A DNA stretch of 64,000 bases from positions 1 to 64,000 of the forward strand of contig JAAVIC010000001.1 in NCBI GenBank assembly GCA_014799385.1. The letters run 5' to 3'. This stretch comes from Oscillospiraceae bacterium (GTDB lineage Bacteria; Bacillota; Clostridia; Oscillospirales; Ruminococcaceae). The notes under the pieces are model-generated. The model saw only the letters and a program-made list of their open reading frames with translations. It was not told the origin of the DNA and searched no databases. This document shows, one piece after another, positions 22,987 through 28,025 of the stretch. The position numbers and the translations under genes were made by a program. Position 1 is the stretch's first letter, and each line of letters opens with the position of its first letter.

Positions 22987-24429
22987 TTACTTTTCCTTAT
23001 TGTTTACGCGGTCGACAAAGGTCTGCGCATCGTTCAGAATCTTATCGTACTTGGTGTCGCCGCTTGAAATCACACTCTTAAAGAACGACAGCAGTTTTTT
23101 GTTGGAGTCCTGACCCATAACGCGCCGCGCGACATATTCATGAGCCGCCGACAGCTCGGAATTGTCCATGACCGCGATGGCAAAGTCCACAAAACGCTTT
23201 GTGTCGGTAAACTGCAAATAGTTGCATGCCGTAACAATGCTCGAATAATAATTCGGAGATACGATAATCTCCCCGTTGCACTCCACATCACCGGCAAGCA
23301 AGCAGTTGAGCTGCGCGTCGGAAAGGCTGTCGATTGCGTAAGCGGAGCTTATCATCTCGCTGTCGGGCATCTTATCCGCAGCGTCCAAAACGGGAAACGG
23401 AAGAACGTTGTTGCTTACGGATTTGCGCCGCATAGTGCCGAGCTTAGCAATCAGCGTGTTGAAATTTCGCGGCTTGTATTCCGCTCTGCCCTCGATAAGC
23501 ATTTTAAGCATCTCTTTCGGAATGTCGGCGAGCGGGAGCTTCACAGACGCGCTGCGGAAACCCGTCACGCCATCGCTTACGGGAACAAGCTCCTCGAGTT
23601 GGGGGGACGGCGCGGGCGCCTTTGTCTGCTTCTCGGTATTCTCGGGATTTTCGGAATCCTCCTCCGTTTCCTCGGTGGGAGCGGTTTTAACGGGTTGTGG
23701 GGGCGCTTTTACGGAGATCACATCGGTATAGGGCTCGGTGATCTTCTCGATAACCGCGCAAGTAAACGGAATCCCCCTTTCGGTACAGGAAGCCGCGCTG
23801 TGATGTCCCTTAAGCAACACGGAATGCAGCCCCGACAGATGATACGCGATACCGAGAACGCGCCGCGATTTCGCTGAATCATCGGTAGTCATCTTGGTGC
23901 GCGCCTGGAAATAGTCCAGCGGCTGACTCGGAATCAAAAAGCACGGTTTATACGCGCGGTTGCCGATAACGCGGCTGTGCTCCGCCGTTCCCTGAATCTC
24001 GTGCGAGATGTTGTATGCGCCCCAAAAGAAATTTCCGCTGCCGTCGGTGGGGTAATAATCCGACAGATAAGCGACATAAACTCCGTCCTGAAGTACGCCG
24101 AAAATGTCTTTAAGCGCGGAGCTGAGCGATTCTCCCTCATTGAGCTTCTTGTAACCAATGCCTATTGCCTCATTGATTTTAGGCTCATAGCCCTGAAATC
24201 CCGGGCAAAACGAAATCAGCTTGTCGCTTTGCTTATTGCCGAAATTCGGCGCGATAAGACTGATAATTGGGTCGTTGCCAATATAAAACAGGCGCGTAAG
24301 AGCACTCGCGCTGTTTTCGATATGACCGGCGCAGCAAGTGCCGATAATGCCATCGCCGTTTCGCACGGACACCAACAGCACGCTCTTTCCATTAATATCA
24401 ACGATCTCCGACTTTATTTCAGCCGCCAA
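22987..24429 (-). CDS. Uncharacterised 480-residue protein with ParB/Srx-like motif
   Basis: Soluble protein, no signal peptide. An N-terminal region (about 1-170) is unrecognised. Around residues 190-235 the segment LGIAYHLSGLHSVLLKGHHS followed by AASCTERGIPFTCAVIEKI resembles the GHHR-A-x(4)-G-x-P/V-CIVI core of ParB/sulfiredoxin-like domains, though Arg is Ser. An acidic Pro/Glu linker (about 240-285) separates it from a C-terminal domain of about 190 residues. The start is TTG 24429, with AAGGGG upstream from leader repeat copy H; no ATG is available nearby. Function unknown. Confidence 0.7.
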   Translation of the reverse strand: MAAEIKSEIVDINGKSVLLVSVRNGDGIIGTCCAGHIENSASALTRLFYIGNDPIISLIAPNFGNKQSDKLISFCPGFQGYEPKINEAIGIGYKKLNEGESLSSALKDIFGVLQDGVYVAYLSDYYPTDGSGNFFWGAYNISHEIQGTAEHSRVIGNRAYKPCFLIPSQPLDYFQARTKMTTDDSAKSRRVLGIAYHLSGLHSVLLKGHHSAASCTERGIPFTCAVIEKITEPYTDVISVKAPPQPVKTAPTEETEEDSENPENTEKQTKAPAPSPQLEELVPVSDGVTGFRSASVKLPLADIPKEMLKMLIEGRAEYKPRNFNTLIAKLGTMRRKSVSNNVLPFPVLDAADKMPDSEMISSAYAIDSLSDAQLNCLLAGDVECNGEIIVSPNYYSSIVTACNYLQFTDTKRFVDFAIAVMDNSELSAAHEYVARRVMGQDSNKKLLSFFKSVISSGDTKYDKILNDAQTFVDRVNNKEK

Positions 24430-24607: not shown

Positions 24608-25474
24608 TTAACGCTGCTCCAAATGCAGCGCGATTATATCAGCAATTCCGCTTACCATTTTTTTATCGAATGCCTTTTTGGGAATATATGCCAACGGTGA
24701 TTTCCCCTTATACAATATAAACATCTTATCCGACTCGACAAAATAATCCACCGCTTCCCAAGGAACCAAATCGCGGCTCTCATAGGTGCTGCTCTCGCAC
24801 GCGGCAAATCCCTGATGGCTCACAATAAACGTAATCGGCTGCCGCGAGGCAATATCCCCGTCAGCCAGCGACTTGAACCGTGCGCGGGCAATCGCGTGGG
24901 TGATTATGTACACCAAAAGCACGGTGATTCCGCCCGCCGCTAGCGAAATCGGAATAAAATACAGGAAATTATCGCGTGTAATGCCGATAGTGAAATGCAA
25001 GATTCCCATCACGACCAGCGAAATCAGGATAGCAATAAGCCACAACAGCTTCACCAATTTAATGTTCAACAGCATTATGAATGCCGCCGCAGTGTCGCTT
25101 TCGTCCAACAGACCCTCGCCCTTGTACACGTTCTTGCCCATGGAGCGCTCCTCGTACAACAGCTTCATCGGAATCATTCGTTGTTCGTGAGCGTAGCCGA
25201 AACCAAATTCTTTCTGCTTGCACTCGATTATCGCAATCGCGCGAAGCAGCTCCTCCTCGCTGTCAAACATCTTATTCGACACGGTAAACGTTCTGTTCCC
25301 CGCCACTATCGTAATATCGCGCCGCATAACCGCCGCAGACTTGACCTGATCCCAACTGTAAACCGCCGGAATATCGGAGCTTAGCTCATAAACGGCGAAG
25401 ACCCCGCCGAATATATATGTATTGCCATTCTTCTCATCACTTGCGCGCGCGGATTTCAAATCCCGAAACGCCAT
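24608..25474 (-). CDS. Two-helix membrane protein, YcxB-like
   Basis: 288 residues. A cytosolic N-terminal PH-like beta domain (about 1-130) contains YSWDQVKSAAVMRRDITIV. Two transmembrane helices follow (about 137-160 and 170-195). The C-terminal portion, with FIVSHQGFAAC, PWEAVDYFVESDKMFILY and YIPKKAF, closely matches the YcxB-like C-terminal domain pattern. The start at 25474 has AAAGG at a suitable distance; a GTG three codons upstream overlaps it. The role of YcxB-like proteins is unknown. A separate promoter with TATAAT lies upstream, near 25530. Confidence 0.75.
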   Translation of the reverse strand: MAFRDLKSARASDEKNGNTYIFGGVFAVYELSSDIPAVYSWDQVKSAAVMRRDITIVAGNRTFTVSNKMFDSEEELLRAIAIIECKQKEFGFGYAHEQRMIPMKLLYEERSMGKNVYKGEGLLDESDTAAAFIMLLNIKLVKLLWLIAILISLVVMGILHFTIGITRDNFLYFIPISLAAGGITVLLVYIITHAIARARFKSLADGDIASRQPITFIVSHQGFAACESSTYESRDLVPWEAVDYFVESDKMFILYKGKSPLAYIPKKAFDKKMVSGIADIIALHLEQR

Positions 25475-25585
25475 TTCAATCACCCTTTGCCTTAATTTGC
25501 GTACGCCCTTAAATACAATCTCTTTCTATTATAACATACTTTTCCGAAAAAATAAAGGGGGTTTATGTTGATTTTGTGAAATTTT

Positions 25586-25790
25586 TTGCAAAAAAGCAAA
25601 AGCAGGAAACCCGAAGATTCCCTGCCCTGTTCTTTTAATGAACTACCGCCTTGCCGTAGGGTGCAATATAAAACCCGGTACGCAACAGGGTGGGTAAGAT
25701 CGCCCAACGTTTTCACGCTCCCGCCAACCGCAAGGAGAACCTTGCGCGAGGTCTGCAATCCGCCGCCGGAGTCGAAATCCCTTTAATTAA
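25586..25790 (-). ncRNA. Structured small RNA, about 205 nt, possibly 6S-like
   Basis: A minus-strand intergenic unit with no ORF that ends in a terminator (arms GCAGGGAA and TTTCCTGC, then TTTTGCTTTTTT). It has a perfect CGCAAGG-TTCT-CCTTGCG hairpin, a GTTCATTAAAAGAAC hairpin and a CTACGGC...GCGGTAG pair. A TATGAT -10 lies near 25802. The segment TTGCGGTTGGCGGGAGCGTG recalls the bubble region of 6S RNA, but long pairing between the ends is not evident. RNase P, tmRNA and T-box motifs were sought and not found. Confidence 0.5.
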
Positions 25791-25858
25791 TTGTTGGATC
25801 ATAATGGCACACGTATGCGAACAAAGCAGTAATAATAATTTGTACGGTTTTCGGAGGT

Positions 25859-26401
25859 TTATTCGTCCACCTCATCGCCCTCTTCGGCGAACCTTTCGAG
25901 AAACAAATTGCCGATTTCCTCATATTCGTTGTCATCGTCAATCGTACCGAAAGAAATCCCGTCTTCCTCAAAGGACTGTTTGAGTACCACAAAGCTGTCG
26001 TCATCGTCCACGGGAATTACCGCGTGATAGATCACGCCATTATGCTCCATACTGTCGATAAGCTCAAACTTAACGGGTTCTCCGTTCTCATCGCTCAACT
26101 CGAAACAGCCATCCTCATCGGTGATGTTTTCAATTGCGCTGACCCCTTGACGGGCAATCATCATATCCAGAGCATCATTAAACTCCTTGGAGTTTTCAAC
26201 GGGCACAAGTTCGATTTCGCCCAGTTCGTCAACCTTTTCCTTTTCCACCATCATATGGCAGTCCGCGTCCGGGATACCGTTCTCATCGCACTTTATCAGC
26301 GCGTGATATACAACTCCGTTTATTTCGGCTTGATCCACATCAAGAAACCAACGGTTTTCATCGGATACGCGAAGCTCGATCAATTTAGCGTCCTTGTTCA
26401 T
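25859..26401 (-). CDS. Tandem DUF1292-like protein
   Basis: 180 residues, very acidic and soluble. Two copies of a small beta-rich module are visible: residues about 6-65 (LIELRVSDENRWFLDVDQAE and EINGVVYHALIK) and about 95-155 (CFELSDENGEPVKFELIDSM and HNGVIYHAVIPV). This is the DUF1292 pattern found in YrzB-type Firmicutes proteins, here duplicated within one chain. The start has AAGGAG from leader repeat copy I. Function unknown. Confidence 0.8.
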   Translation of the reverse strand: MNKDAKLIELRVSDENRWFLDVDQAEINGVVYHALIKCDENGIPDADCHMMVEKEKVDELGEIELVPVENSKEFNDALDMMIARQGVSAIENITDEDGCFELSDENGEPVKFELIDSMEHNGVIYHAVIPVDDDDSFVVLKQSFEEDGISFGTIDDDNEYEEIGNLFLERFAEEGDEVDE

Positions 26402-26480
26402 AAAAACTCCTTAATTTTAATAGCAAATTGCGAACCGAGCAGACGAGCTTTGCTCGCTTTTGTAATTTGCGCAATCGAAT
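26402..26480 (-). repeat. 5'-leader palindromic repeat, copy I (short)
   Basis: In gene sense: CGCAAATTACAAAAGCGAG, hairpin GAGCAAAGCTC, arm TTCGCAATTTGC and TTAAAATTAAGGAG before the DUF1292-like gene. Confidence 0.65.
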
Positions 26481-26661
26481 AAAATAGCGTTTTCTAAAGA
26501 CTCACATCTAAAAACATTATACACCAAACACGGATTTTTGTCAAGAGGAATTTAGCGGAAAAATGCCCCGAACAGGAGTTTTCACGAAATATCGTTGAAA
26601 ATCGCCAAAACCAAGCCCGAAAATATGTACAAAACATCAATAAGAAAATTAAAAAAATCTA

Positions 26662-26690
26662 TTGACTTTTACTAAAAAATATGGTATCAT
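26662..26690 (+). promoter_or_regulatory. Promoter of the large RNA
   Basis: TTGACT (26662-26667) and TATCAT (26685-26690) with a 17-base spacer. Confidence 0.75.
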
Positions 26691-26696
26691 TTAATC

Positions 26697-27304
26697 AAGG
26701 AACAGAGAAACCGAAGGCAAGCCGAGAGGTCGGTACGGAATCTCTAATCCAAATCCACCGAAAGGAGAACGGTCCGATGGAAACTTAAGTTCGGGTTCTG
26801 AGCGAAGGCTTGGTAGAGTCTAGCTCATCACTTACGAAAGGGAGTTATTCCAATGGGTTGTTAAACTCACGGCGAAAAAATTCAGCTAATTGCAGAAAGG
26901 CGGGCGAATCCAATGGAAAGTGGAGAACCATCTTACATATTGTCTGCGGAGTCGCTGTCCGCTCGGAAGTGACGGTTGAATAGAGGGCGATGGTTTGCAT
27001 AGATGCGCGATGACATCTGAAAGTGCAAAAATCCGCTGAAGCGAAGGCGTTTATGCCGATAAAACCGCACAGAGCGCAGATAACGCAGATTCCTTACCGC
27101 GTAATGCGTTTACATATATTCACAATGGTATGATCGTTTAACGCGTTAAATTTTATCTGAAAGGAATGAGTCCGATGTCCGGAAAAATTTGCTCAACACA
27201 CAAATTTTGATAAGGAGTACGGTCCAATGTAATATCTGTTATCAAGCGAAATTTTTAATTGAATATGATAATCAACTCCCCCTCGGTTTGAGGGGGAGTT
27301 TTAA
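26697..27304 (+). ncRNA. Large structured RNA of about 0.6 kb with five repeated mini-start sites
   Basis: Transcription unit bounded by a promoter and a strong terminator, with no long ORF. Five times it repeats an AAGG-rich ribosome-binding-like stretch, then TCC-R-ATG: ATG at 26777, 26853, 26913, 27175 and 27227. The frames opened are 3, 3, 19, 11 and 1 sense codons long. GGA and TCC around each start can pair. The rest contains many short complementary stretches. Size and looks suggest a large ornate RNA such as ROOL, but I cannot confirm a family by eye. Confidence 0.7.
27274..27304 (+). terminator. Terminator of the large RNA
   Basis: AACTCCCCCTC and GAGGGGGAGTT arms with a 5-base loop and TTTT. 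Confidence 0.9.
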
Positions 27305-27357
27305 TAGTTGATATTTAATAGTTTGTGCGCCGCGTAAGCGGCGCACAAACTATTAAA

Positions 27358-27750
27358 TTATTCAGAGATATTCTCCTGCTCAGCCGCCTTTTCGGGTAGC
27401 TTTGCGCCGCACTTGGGACAGAATGCGTTATCGTTCTTGGTCTTTGCGCCGCACTTCGAGCAAGTAACCTCGCTGCGCAGCTCGTCAAGCTGAGCGGCAA
27501 TCTCAGCCAGCCCCGCATAGCACTCGTCCAGCTCGGCGATGTACTTGTTAAATTCCTCGTTATCCTTGTCGCCGGACTTCGACATCTGATAAATCAGTTC
27601 GCCCAACTTCTCGTATTTGTTCTTGATGTCGCTGCTCAGCGAGCTTTCTTTCAACTTCAGCTTAGAAAAGCGAACGACCTCATCGGTCTTTTTTCCCGCA
27701 GTGGAAACCGCGCTCTTGCCGGTGGAAATTACGTCATCAATAAAGCTCAT
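27358..27750 (-). CDS. Zinc-ribbon protein
   Basis: 130 residues. The N-terminal 90 residues are helical and charged, probably coiled coil, with LKLKESSLSSDIKNKYEKLG and a following acidic helix. The C-terminus has a zinc ribbon, CSKCGAKTKNDNAFCPKCGAK (four cysteines; quoted in part: CSKCGAK and FCPKCGAK). The start at 27750 follows AAAGGAG, and a TTG two codons earlier overlaps that site. This layout is common in Firmicutes proteins of unknown function. Confidence 0.8.
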   Translation of the reverse strand: MSFIDDVISTGKSAVSTAGKKTDEVVRFSKLKLKESSLSSDIKNKYEKLGELIYQMSKSGDKDNEEFNKYIAELDECYAGLAEIAAQLDELRSEVTCSKCGAKTKNDNAFCPKCGAKLPEKAAEQENISE

Positions 27751-28025
27751 TGTCAAATACTCCTTTCAAAGCACCAAATAATGGGAATCATTCCCGCAAT
27801 CCGTATAAAAACCCGATTTATGCATTCCTCCCCTGCCTGCGGCGGGGGAGGAATGCGCCTAGGTTTTTATATGCAGTCTGAGTGGAAATTTTTTCCGAAA
27901 ATTCCCTTATGTGTATTATATCACACTTTCACCAAAAAAGCAAGCGATTTTTGTGGAATTTTTGTGATTATTTCGTAAAATCCACGCGAATCGCGCTTAA
28001 AATTATTACAATCCTGTCATAATTC
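27751..28025. repeat. Intergenic palindrome between divergent genes
   Basis: A perfect 12-bp-arm hairpin GCATTCCTCCCC/GGGGAGGAATGC (27820-27855) is flanked by a further pair GTATAAAAACC/GGTTTTTATA. The sequence CAGTCTGAGTGG just after it matches the right end of MITE-like element 2. No gene is seen. Confidence 0.55.

Follow-up and report, generated by a model that had tools for sequence, protein, structure and literature searches.

Start sites on a free-standing RNA

What is the role of a short stretch of bacterial DNA that is framed by a promoter and a terminator, contains no long gene and carries a row of well-formed ribosome start sites? We addressed this question for a locus in a 64-kb window (the whole stretch of DNA analysed, 64,000 nucleotides) from a genome of 2.69 Mb in 33 contigs. 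The preliminary description of the locus had placed five ATGs at 26777, 26853, 26913, 27175 and 27227, and all five were confirmed exactly. Its frame lengths of 3, 3, 19, 11 and 1 codons were re-read as ATGGAAACTTAA, ATGGGTTGTTAA, 19 codons, 11 codons and ATGTAA, and the promoter and the terminator were also found where it had put them (Table 1). Judged by its sequence, the locus is a free-standing unit of about 0.6 kb, presumably transcribed, with a row of start sites most of which stop almost at once.

Table 1. Features of the RNA unit and its neighbours in the window (-stop, stop codon)
Feature	Position	Strand	Evidence or remarks
Promoter TTGACT-17-TATCAT	26662..26690	+	10/12 consensus positions, TG before -10, A-rich block upstream
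Site 1, AAAGGAG-AACGG-TCCG-ATG, ORF1 of 3 codons (MET-stop)	26761..26788	+	relatives MES-stop, MER-stop, MG.-stop
Site 2, AAAGGGAG..TCCA-ATG, ORF2 of 3 codons (MGC-stop)	26837..26864	+	relatives MGR-stop, MAR-stop, MA-stop
Site 3, AAAGGCGG..TCCA-ATG, ORF3 of 19 codons (MESGEPSYILSAESLSARK-stop)	26896..26972	+	17-23 codons in 30/30 genus copies
Folded central domain, closing stem 26942-26950/27073-27081, inner hairpin ~26986-27037	26942..27081	+	RNAalifold, covariation, 28 sequences
Conserved element GCGTTTACAT	27106..27115	+	one variant among 30; ORF4 next in relatives, degenerate in the window
Site 4 (ORF5), AAAGGAATGAG-TCCG-ATG, 11 codons (MSGKICSTHKF-stop)	27160..27210	+	motif scan and genus alignment
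Site 5 (ORF6), AGGAGTACGG-TCCA-ATG-TAA, bare start-stop	27213..27232	+	ATG-TAA in 28/30 genus copies
Conserved AATTGAATA directly 5' of the terminator	27257..27265	+	near-invariant in 30 genus copies
Intrinsic terminator hairpin, GC-rich	27275..27301	+	letters vary among relatives
DUF1292 gene, divergent from the RNA	25859..26401	-	PF06949, E 2.3e-16
6S RNA gene	25639..25835	-	RF00013, 44.9 bits, E 6.8e-8; 1.5 bits below the Rfam cut-off
Zinc-ribbon gene, next downstream of the RNA	27358..27756	-	opposite strand to the RNA

Of the 11 copies of the pattern AAAGGN{5,11}TCCRATG in the 2.69-Mb genome, four lie inside the 0.6-kb unit, whose fifth site starts with ATAAGG and hence falls outside this count. 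A looser form of the motif was found in the window 13 times on the plus strand (five in the unit) and 16 times on the minus strand; when a stop within three codons was also demanded, the counts were four (three in the unit) and zero. A plus-strand frame of 57 codons with a TTG start (26810-26983) overlaps the RNA interval. Folded as a single sequence, the whole window RNA shows a modest gain in stability over its shuffles (z -1.80, 20 shuffles).

Two further elements flank the unit. Directly after the terminator, positions 27313-27358 form a near-perfect palindrome of 46 bases (95.7%, self-BLAST), which is missing in the near twin L002. Upstream of the -35 element, at ~26620-26640 and at the equivalent place in the genus copies, lies a conserved block, AAAATATATACAAA, from which the window differs by one base; its exact form has zero occurrences in the window's own genome. 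This block is perhaps a regulator site common to the divergent DUF1292 promoter.

Conservation of the short frames within the genus

Among 100 relatives, counting the own genome, BLAST detected the RNA in 32. All 32 belong to the same genus, which contributed 43 genomes to the sample, and the other 11 of the 43 gave no BLAST match. Thirty of the 32 copies (L001-L030) were read; as they are related, the counts from them are not independent events. An exact 20-mer scan identified a near twin (L031), a metagenome-assembled uncultured Clostridia bacterium with ~96% identity across the RNA region, and one other match (L032), which was an unrelated protein-coding sequence.

Five sites are present in 24 of the 30 copies, four in four copies and three in two. 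They open 142 motif-led frames, including 78 of 1-3 codons (28 of one, eight of two and 42 of three), 28 of 11-12 codons, 30 of 17-23 codons and six of other lengths (5, 5, 5, 6, 7 and 57); longer first or second frames occur in a few copies (5, 5, 5, 6, 12 and 57 codons). All 30 copies have a promoter of the same type, an ATG-TA(A/C) near the end, which reads ATG-TAC-TGA in the two copies without the bare start-stop, and TTGAATA, or a variant of it by one or two bases, 5' of the terminator. In most relatives one more short frame, ORF4 (beginning MCAL or the like), brings the number to six and stands between the third and fourth sites. A regular expression matched it in 27 of 30 copies; L024 deviates from the expression, and in L001 and L002, which are of the window's own kind, ORF4 is degenerate (27106-27160 in the window).

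The preliminary description had named independent drift of ATG and AAGG among homologues as evidence against its reading, and no such drift was seen in the alignments. The stop codons of the genus frames interchange (TGA 73, TAA 63, TAG 6). The ORF3 frame survives a 3-nt deletion in L013, whereas in L019 deletions of two bases and one base leave the middle in a shifted frame and restore an equivalent stop; in some copies the ORF3 stop lies 1-4 codons later. Translation of these frames is thus argued for by the joint conservation of the Shine-Dalgarno (SD) sequence, UCCR, AUG and early stop, by the interchange of stops and by the indels that keep the frame.

If translation served the products, the locus would be a micropeptide operon in which ORF3, ORF4 and ORF5 give functional or regulatory peptides and the frames of 1-3 codons tune their translation. 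The longer frames do have genus-wide patterns (ME..EP....SAES, MC.L....GKF and MS.KIC...KF), those of ~11 codons (ORF4 and ORF5) often end in KF or KY, and frames of 17-22 and ~11 codons are found at matching places in the transcripts of other genera. However, the pN/pS values of 0.76 for ORF3, 0.79 for ORF4 and 0.66 for ORF5, obtained from 17, 12 and 15 equal-length sequences of 29, 27 and 27, respectively, were equally low in 24, 20 and 14 of 100 column shuffles, and the +2 frame gave still lower values (0.71, 0.63 and 0.51). In addition, L019 reads the middle of ORF3 in another frame, and M, MA or MY followed by a stop are no functional peptides in the usual sense. We consider a micropeptide operon decidedly unlikely. 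Since amino-acid selection was not apparent in this weak test, selection seems to act on the start and stop of ribosomes more than on a product.

Related arrays in other genera

More distant relatives were searched with R1, a sequence-only profile of the 3' part of the RNA that contains two of the motifs. At E ≤ 0.01, R1 matched 59 of 396 genomes in the family sample (29 of 126 genera, own genus included) and 18 of 295 genomes in the order sample (14 of 148 genera). Outside the genus, 67 distinct genomes were matched, each of them weakly when taken individually (E 3e-6 to 0.01). Initially 39 short loci were viewed, and longer stretches were then taken for 40 of the 67 genomes. Over the whole of these 40 stretches, both strands together contain 122 frames of 1-3 codons, versus three in the reversed sequence. 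Loci chosen by R1 favour motifs inside the match, and the fairer count is that of motifs outside it and within 1.5 kb. The RNA strand has 109 such motifs, of which 57 stop within three codons, compared with 10 (zero stopping so early) on the opposite strand and six (one) in reversed sequence; the outside-match frames on the RNA strand have a second length cluster at 16-20 codons.

With the match included, at least two frames of 1-3 codons led by SD-CCN-ATG stand on one strand in 34 of 40 loci, and at least three in 27; six loci have fewer than two, and the two micro-frames of L156 come from a unit that is present twice. When the match is left out, one or more micro-frames remain in 32 of the 40 loci and two or more in 14. 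The distances between ATGs show a common spacing. Among 87 distances below 200 nt, 37 measure 50-56 nt. For 64 of the distances at least one of the two ATGs lies outside the match, and here the counts are 25 at 50-56 nt, 36 at 44-67 nt and 12 at 96-110 nt. Several of seven other-genus transcripts keep the order of parts, with a long ORF3-like frame followed by ORF4-like frames of ~11 codons and then the array, while L157 has the array alone; arrays in other genera can also be longer. A promoter-like pattern lies upstream in 16 of 40 loci, and CAATT[GT]AATA is present in 12 of 40. These sequence comparisons indicate that there are related RNAs in other genera and that the window RNA is part of a wider class.

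No arrays were seen in the class and phylum samples. In the class sample four of 291 genomes matched at E ≤ 0.001 (own, one of the same family, one of the same order and one outside the order), and the match outside the order (L207) has a single micro-frame. In the phylum sample, which was compared with a backward control by eye, the pattern AAGGN{4,9}TCCRATGNNNTRA occurred in at least 136 of 398 genomes among the matches listed, mostly at single places, and the only close pair seen among these matches was the known G144 locus.

The micro-frames of other genera encode M, MA, MY, MV, MNC, MER and alike, each directly followed by a stop, and bring to mind the bar minigenes of phage lambda. In an RNA of that type, frames of 2-3 codons would cause drop-off of peptidyl-tRNA and thereby tie up certain tRNAs or report on the activity of peptidyl-tRNA hydrolase. 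Frames of two or three codons with a strong SD are numerous here, two-codon frames led by an SD occur in the relatives (the window itself has frames of 1, 3, 3, 11 and 19 codons), and TAA makes up 65 of the 115 micro-frame stops in other genera. The most toxic minigenes are described as short, led by a strong SD and ended by UAA (PMC8708949), and bar minigenes as lowering free tRNA (PMC8012679). Against such a role, the second codons of the two-codon frames are diverse (A 19, Y 16, K 9, R 8, V 7 and others), a bare ATG-TAA carries initiator tRNA only, and drop-off toxicity would presumably be costly for a conserved chromosomal gene. A bar-type role is improbable in our estimate.

The start-site motif and the 16S rRNA tail

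The motif was analysed in 317 copies, 142 from the genus and 175 from other genera. In 277 of them CC is preceded by T, and position -1 is A in 148, G in 130, C in 34 and T in 5. The distance from SD to AUG varies, whereas the place of TCC before AUG is fixed. ATG follows [AG]GG..TCCR 244 times, and the second most frequent codon in that place is CAG (13 times). As an exchanged start codon GTG was rejected, because its three cases, two of them with a short frame (L147 and L160), are too few against CTG (8) and AAG (11).

Pairing of GGA with TCC, from which the preliminary description had derived repeated hairpins mimicking start sites, is allowed by the letters but is not backed by covariation. 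The base that follows GG can form a standard pair with the one preceding CC in 203 of 317 copies, versus 201.4 +/- 4.6 with shuffled partners; GG and CC are fixed by the search pattern, so that this check covers only the flanking pair. Because the flanking bases do not covary, the hairpin is unsupported. The 22 bases 5' of AUG also self-fold little beyond ordinary SD regions, with means of -2.36 and -1.96 versus -1.83 kcal/mol. A related candidate, a sponge for CsrA/RsmE, was rejected as well. Such sponge RNAs show repeated GGA in hairpin loops, and here no more than 169 of 317 copies have A following GG, and pair covariation is lacking in the motif.

The same results bear on whether the RNA is purely structural and untranslated, its motif resembling start sites by chance. 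The folded central domain (see below) and the motif copies without AUG would suit such an RNA, but the early in-frame stops, their interchange, the indels that keep the frame, the good SD sequences and the missing pair covariation in the motif make it very improbable. Serial capture of ribosomes at start-stop sites is favoured over hairpin mimicry because SD, AUG and early stop are kept jointly across genera while the intervening sequence diverges.

The CC before AUG distinguishes the micro-frames from other short frames. Among frames of 1-3 codons led by an SD in the 40 stretches, 114 on the RNA strand and zero on the other strand have CC at -3,-2, and 32 and 20, respectively, lack it; none of the latter has CC at six other offsets tried. 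A slightly different rule for SD-led short frames gave 115, 40 and 23, in agreement with these counts. Among 210 SD-led ORFs of at least 120 codons in the same stretches, which were uncurated, none has TCC at -4..-2 and 11 have CC.

The fixed UCC may be connected with the 16S rRNA. In three relatives of the order (L208-L210) the 16S tail reads GGCTGGATCACCTCCTTTCT, in one genus member (G030) it was found as TGGATCACCTCCTTTC, and in the tails of relatives UGGA stands just 5' of the anti-SD. A search for the tail found none in the own genome and none in 20 relatives with E. coli-like letters; a shorter pattern was present in eight of 100 relatives. Predicted duplexes with the tail average -15.9 kcal/mol for genus copies and -14.3 for the others, versus -12.0 for ordinary SD regions, and take in positions -4..-2 in 312 of 316 copies versus 120 of 209 ordinary sites, the share of CC in the duplex being partly built in because the motif pattern demands CC. 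For pairing with the tail, TCC ranks fourth of 64 triplets, behind CCA, GCC and CCG, and at -1 A is best, followed by G (computed on 60 of the 174 other-genus copies). With an E. coli-like tail containing GGUUGG, TCC ranks first of 64; the tail of the three relatives has GGCUGG. As a lead from these duplex predictions, UCC right before AUG could extend the pairing with the 16S tail. On the other hand, a fixed UCC-AUG together with a variable distance between SD and UCC is unlike what simple pairing predicts, and a UCC so near to AUG may miss the tail once the P site holds the AUG.

A second form of the motif, GGAGTGAGTCCRCC or near to it, lacks the AUG and was observed in L137, L142, L143, L147 and L148, often after an ORF4-like frame of ~11 codons. 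Its letters come close to the complement of the 16S rRNA tail.

Folding of the central domain and of the 3' part

From ORF3 up to CGCAGA the RNA folds into a central domain, a conclusion drawn from covariation in aligned copies. It consists of a closing stem of nine pairs, the 5' strand of which lies inside ORF3, and an inner hairpin. In the alignment of 28 sequences, which leaves out L002 (a near copy) and L005, 95.1% of cells are paired, and pairing drops to 29-49% with slid partners. Two-sided changes were counted in 38 cells versus 12.6 after shuffling (0/500), and further pair types were unexceptional (24 versus 22.1; 50/500). Five of the nine closing pairs are invariant, and two of the nine are non-standard in the window itself. 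For the 3' part, 30 sequences gave no consensus fold except a weak A/T hairpin within ORF5, and its letters are conserved.

A folded domain inside a long AU-rich RNA raises the possibility of self-protection, with ribosomes at the micro-frames shielding the RNA from nucleases or Rho and the function residing in the central domain or in a partner. The excess of two-sided changes in the domain is consistent with this, as is the two-codon minigene of axe-txe, described as acting in cis and possibly protecting its mRNA (PMC8708949). However, the recurrent spacing and the early stops surpass the needs of shielding, and arrays elsewhere can be longer. We regard self-protection as unlikely.

Genomic neighbourhood

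The RNA has conserved neighbours on its upstream side. A DUF1292-like frame lies divergently upstream in all 30 genus loci and in 25 of 40 loci from other genera. A match to 6S RNA was present in 11 of 12 genus genomes (one over the cut-off) and adjoins the RNA in all 11. In other genera, the scan covered 29 of the 40 stretches, and 16 of these 29 (9 of 14 and 7 of 15) have a 6S RNA scoring over the cut-off, always on the strand opposite to the array. As this layout recurs in the genus and in other genera, 6S RNA, DUF1292 and the RNA are, on present sequences, an old cluster, which is not complete in every relative.

Downstream, no gene family is kept directly after the RNA on its strand in 21 genus stretches. 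Attenuators typically combine short frames with a terminator, and in this the unit is like a leader with upstream frames controlling a downstream gene. Without a kept co-directional gene in these 21 stretches, and with the downstream neighbour in the window on the other strand, an attenuator or uORF leader was rejected and is scarcely credible.

Other genes were seen repeatedly near the RNA. Families represented in the window by minus-strand genes at 22990-24429 (no Pfam match) and 24611-25483 (a weak YcxB match) occur near it in 11 and 9 of the 21 genus stretches, respectively, and a protein of ~900 aa in 9 of 21. A phage element was also considered and rejected. The 15-base AGGAGTGAGTCCRCC occurs in 38 viral stretches, which was taken as chance because there is a single match per stretch, and a DUF1292 query against viral contigs found no relative.

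Comparison with known RNAs

The preliminary description had suggested ROOL or a similar large RNA class, and this membership was not borne out. The ROOL, GOLLD and OLE families are present in the Rfam library. At gathering thresholds, Rfam assigned no family to the window RNA or to the arrays of other genera. Covariance models run on the interval 26400-27500 gave 15 matches at E ≤ 10 with no ROOL, GOLLD or OLE among them; the best sub-threshold match was AaHKsRNA41 at the terminator repeat (24.5 of 97 bits, E 0.0029). Location argues in the same direction. ROOL and GOLLD are described in prophages or phages, often near tRNA islands (PMC12286853), whereas this RNA adjoins DUF1292 and 6S in the genus and its nearest tRNA gene is 4 kb off. 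Like ROOL, GOLLD and OLE, it is a long conserved bacterial RNA with folded parts and a function not assigned, but it differs from them in its little 3' structure and its chromosomal place beside 6S, outside phage tRNA islands.

At the level of titles and abstracts, the open-licence literature yielded no tandem-array RNA of this kind, and the nearest parallels are single sites. In lambda bar an SD-led start is followed by a stop after two codons. The mini-ORFs of bar and axe-txe, as described, share SD, start and stop after two codons with the window RNA (PMC8012679, PMC8708949); they occur singly or in pairs inside other transcripts, whereas the class described here strings three to five or more on a free-standing conserved unit. 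A bare start-stop at which ribosomes stall is described for the AUGUAA of Arabidopsis NIP5;1 (PMC11915504), and ATG-TAA in the window RNA, read from sequence alone, has the same form. The NIP5;1 site belongs to a eukaryotic 5' leader and acts on its own mRNA, in contrast to the bacterial, tandem sites of the window RNA, which have no downstream gene.

Proposed function and implications

The reading that we prefer, although with a little less than even confidence, is that of a stand-alone RNA with tandem start-stop sites at which ribosomes are captured, a role suggested by the sequence and by analogy. The 16S rRNA tail would pair with AAAGGAG, and the pairing would, unusually, continue over UCCR as far as the AUG and bind the 30S subunit tightly. 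The ribosome would then start, translate 1-3 codons or, at ORF3-ORF5, a short peptide before it meets a stop, and be released or restart. With the common spacing of ~52 nt, ribosomes could sit side by side on neighbouring sites. The simplest reading of the design is a ribosome sink or gauge. The RNA may act in this way on initiation factors as well as on ribosomes, and would then be the counterpart in translation of the adjoining 6S RNA. Several observations weigh against capture: ORF3, ORF4 and ORF5 exceed the length that a trap needs, some motif copies in relatives lack the AUG (GGAGTGAGTCCRCC), the R1 matches outside the genus are weak one by one with six of 40 loci below two micro-frames, and 11 of 43 genus genomes are without a BLAST match.

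6S RNA mimics promoter DNA for RNA polymerase, and the decoy principle proposed here for ribosomes is the same, the two genes being neighbours; the likeness proposed is one of principle and gene position, not of sequence or fold. 6S RNA binds the RNA polymerase holoenzyme (PMC9130861). More tentatively, we suggest as a possibility that the RNA represents a new class, spread over many genera and genetically linked to 6S, that exists in order to be initiated on. Its over-paired start-stop array would serve to sequester or meter ribosomes, and decoys for both RNA polymerase and the ribosome would thus be encoded at one locus.

Under the rival readings too, the locus contains a conserved RNA unit that matches no Rfam family and keeps its place on the chromosome. 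If ribosome capture is true, bacteria would have a dedicated RNA on which ribosomes start without making the usual protein, an RNA standing between mRNA and non-coding RNA. It would provide natural material for studying initiating ribosomes at AUG-stop sites, and the metering of free ribosomes by a decoy, comparable to that of RNA polymerase by 6S RNA, would become directly testable.
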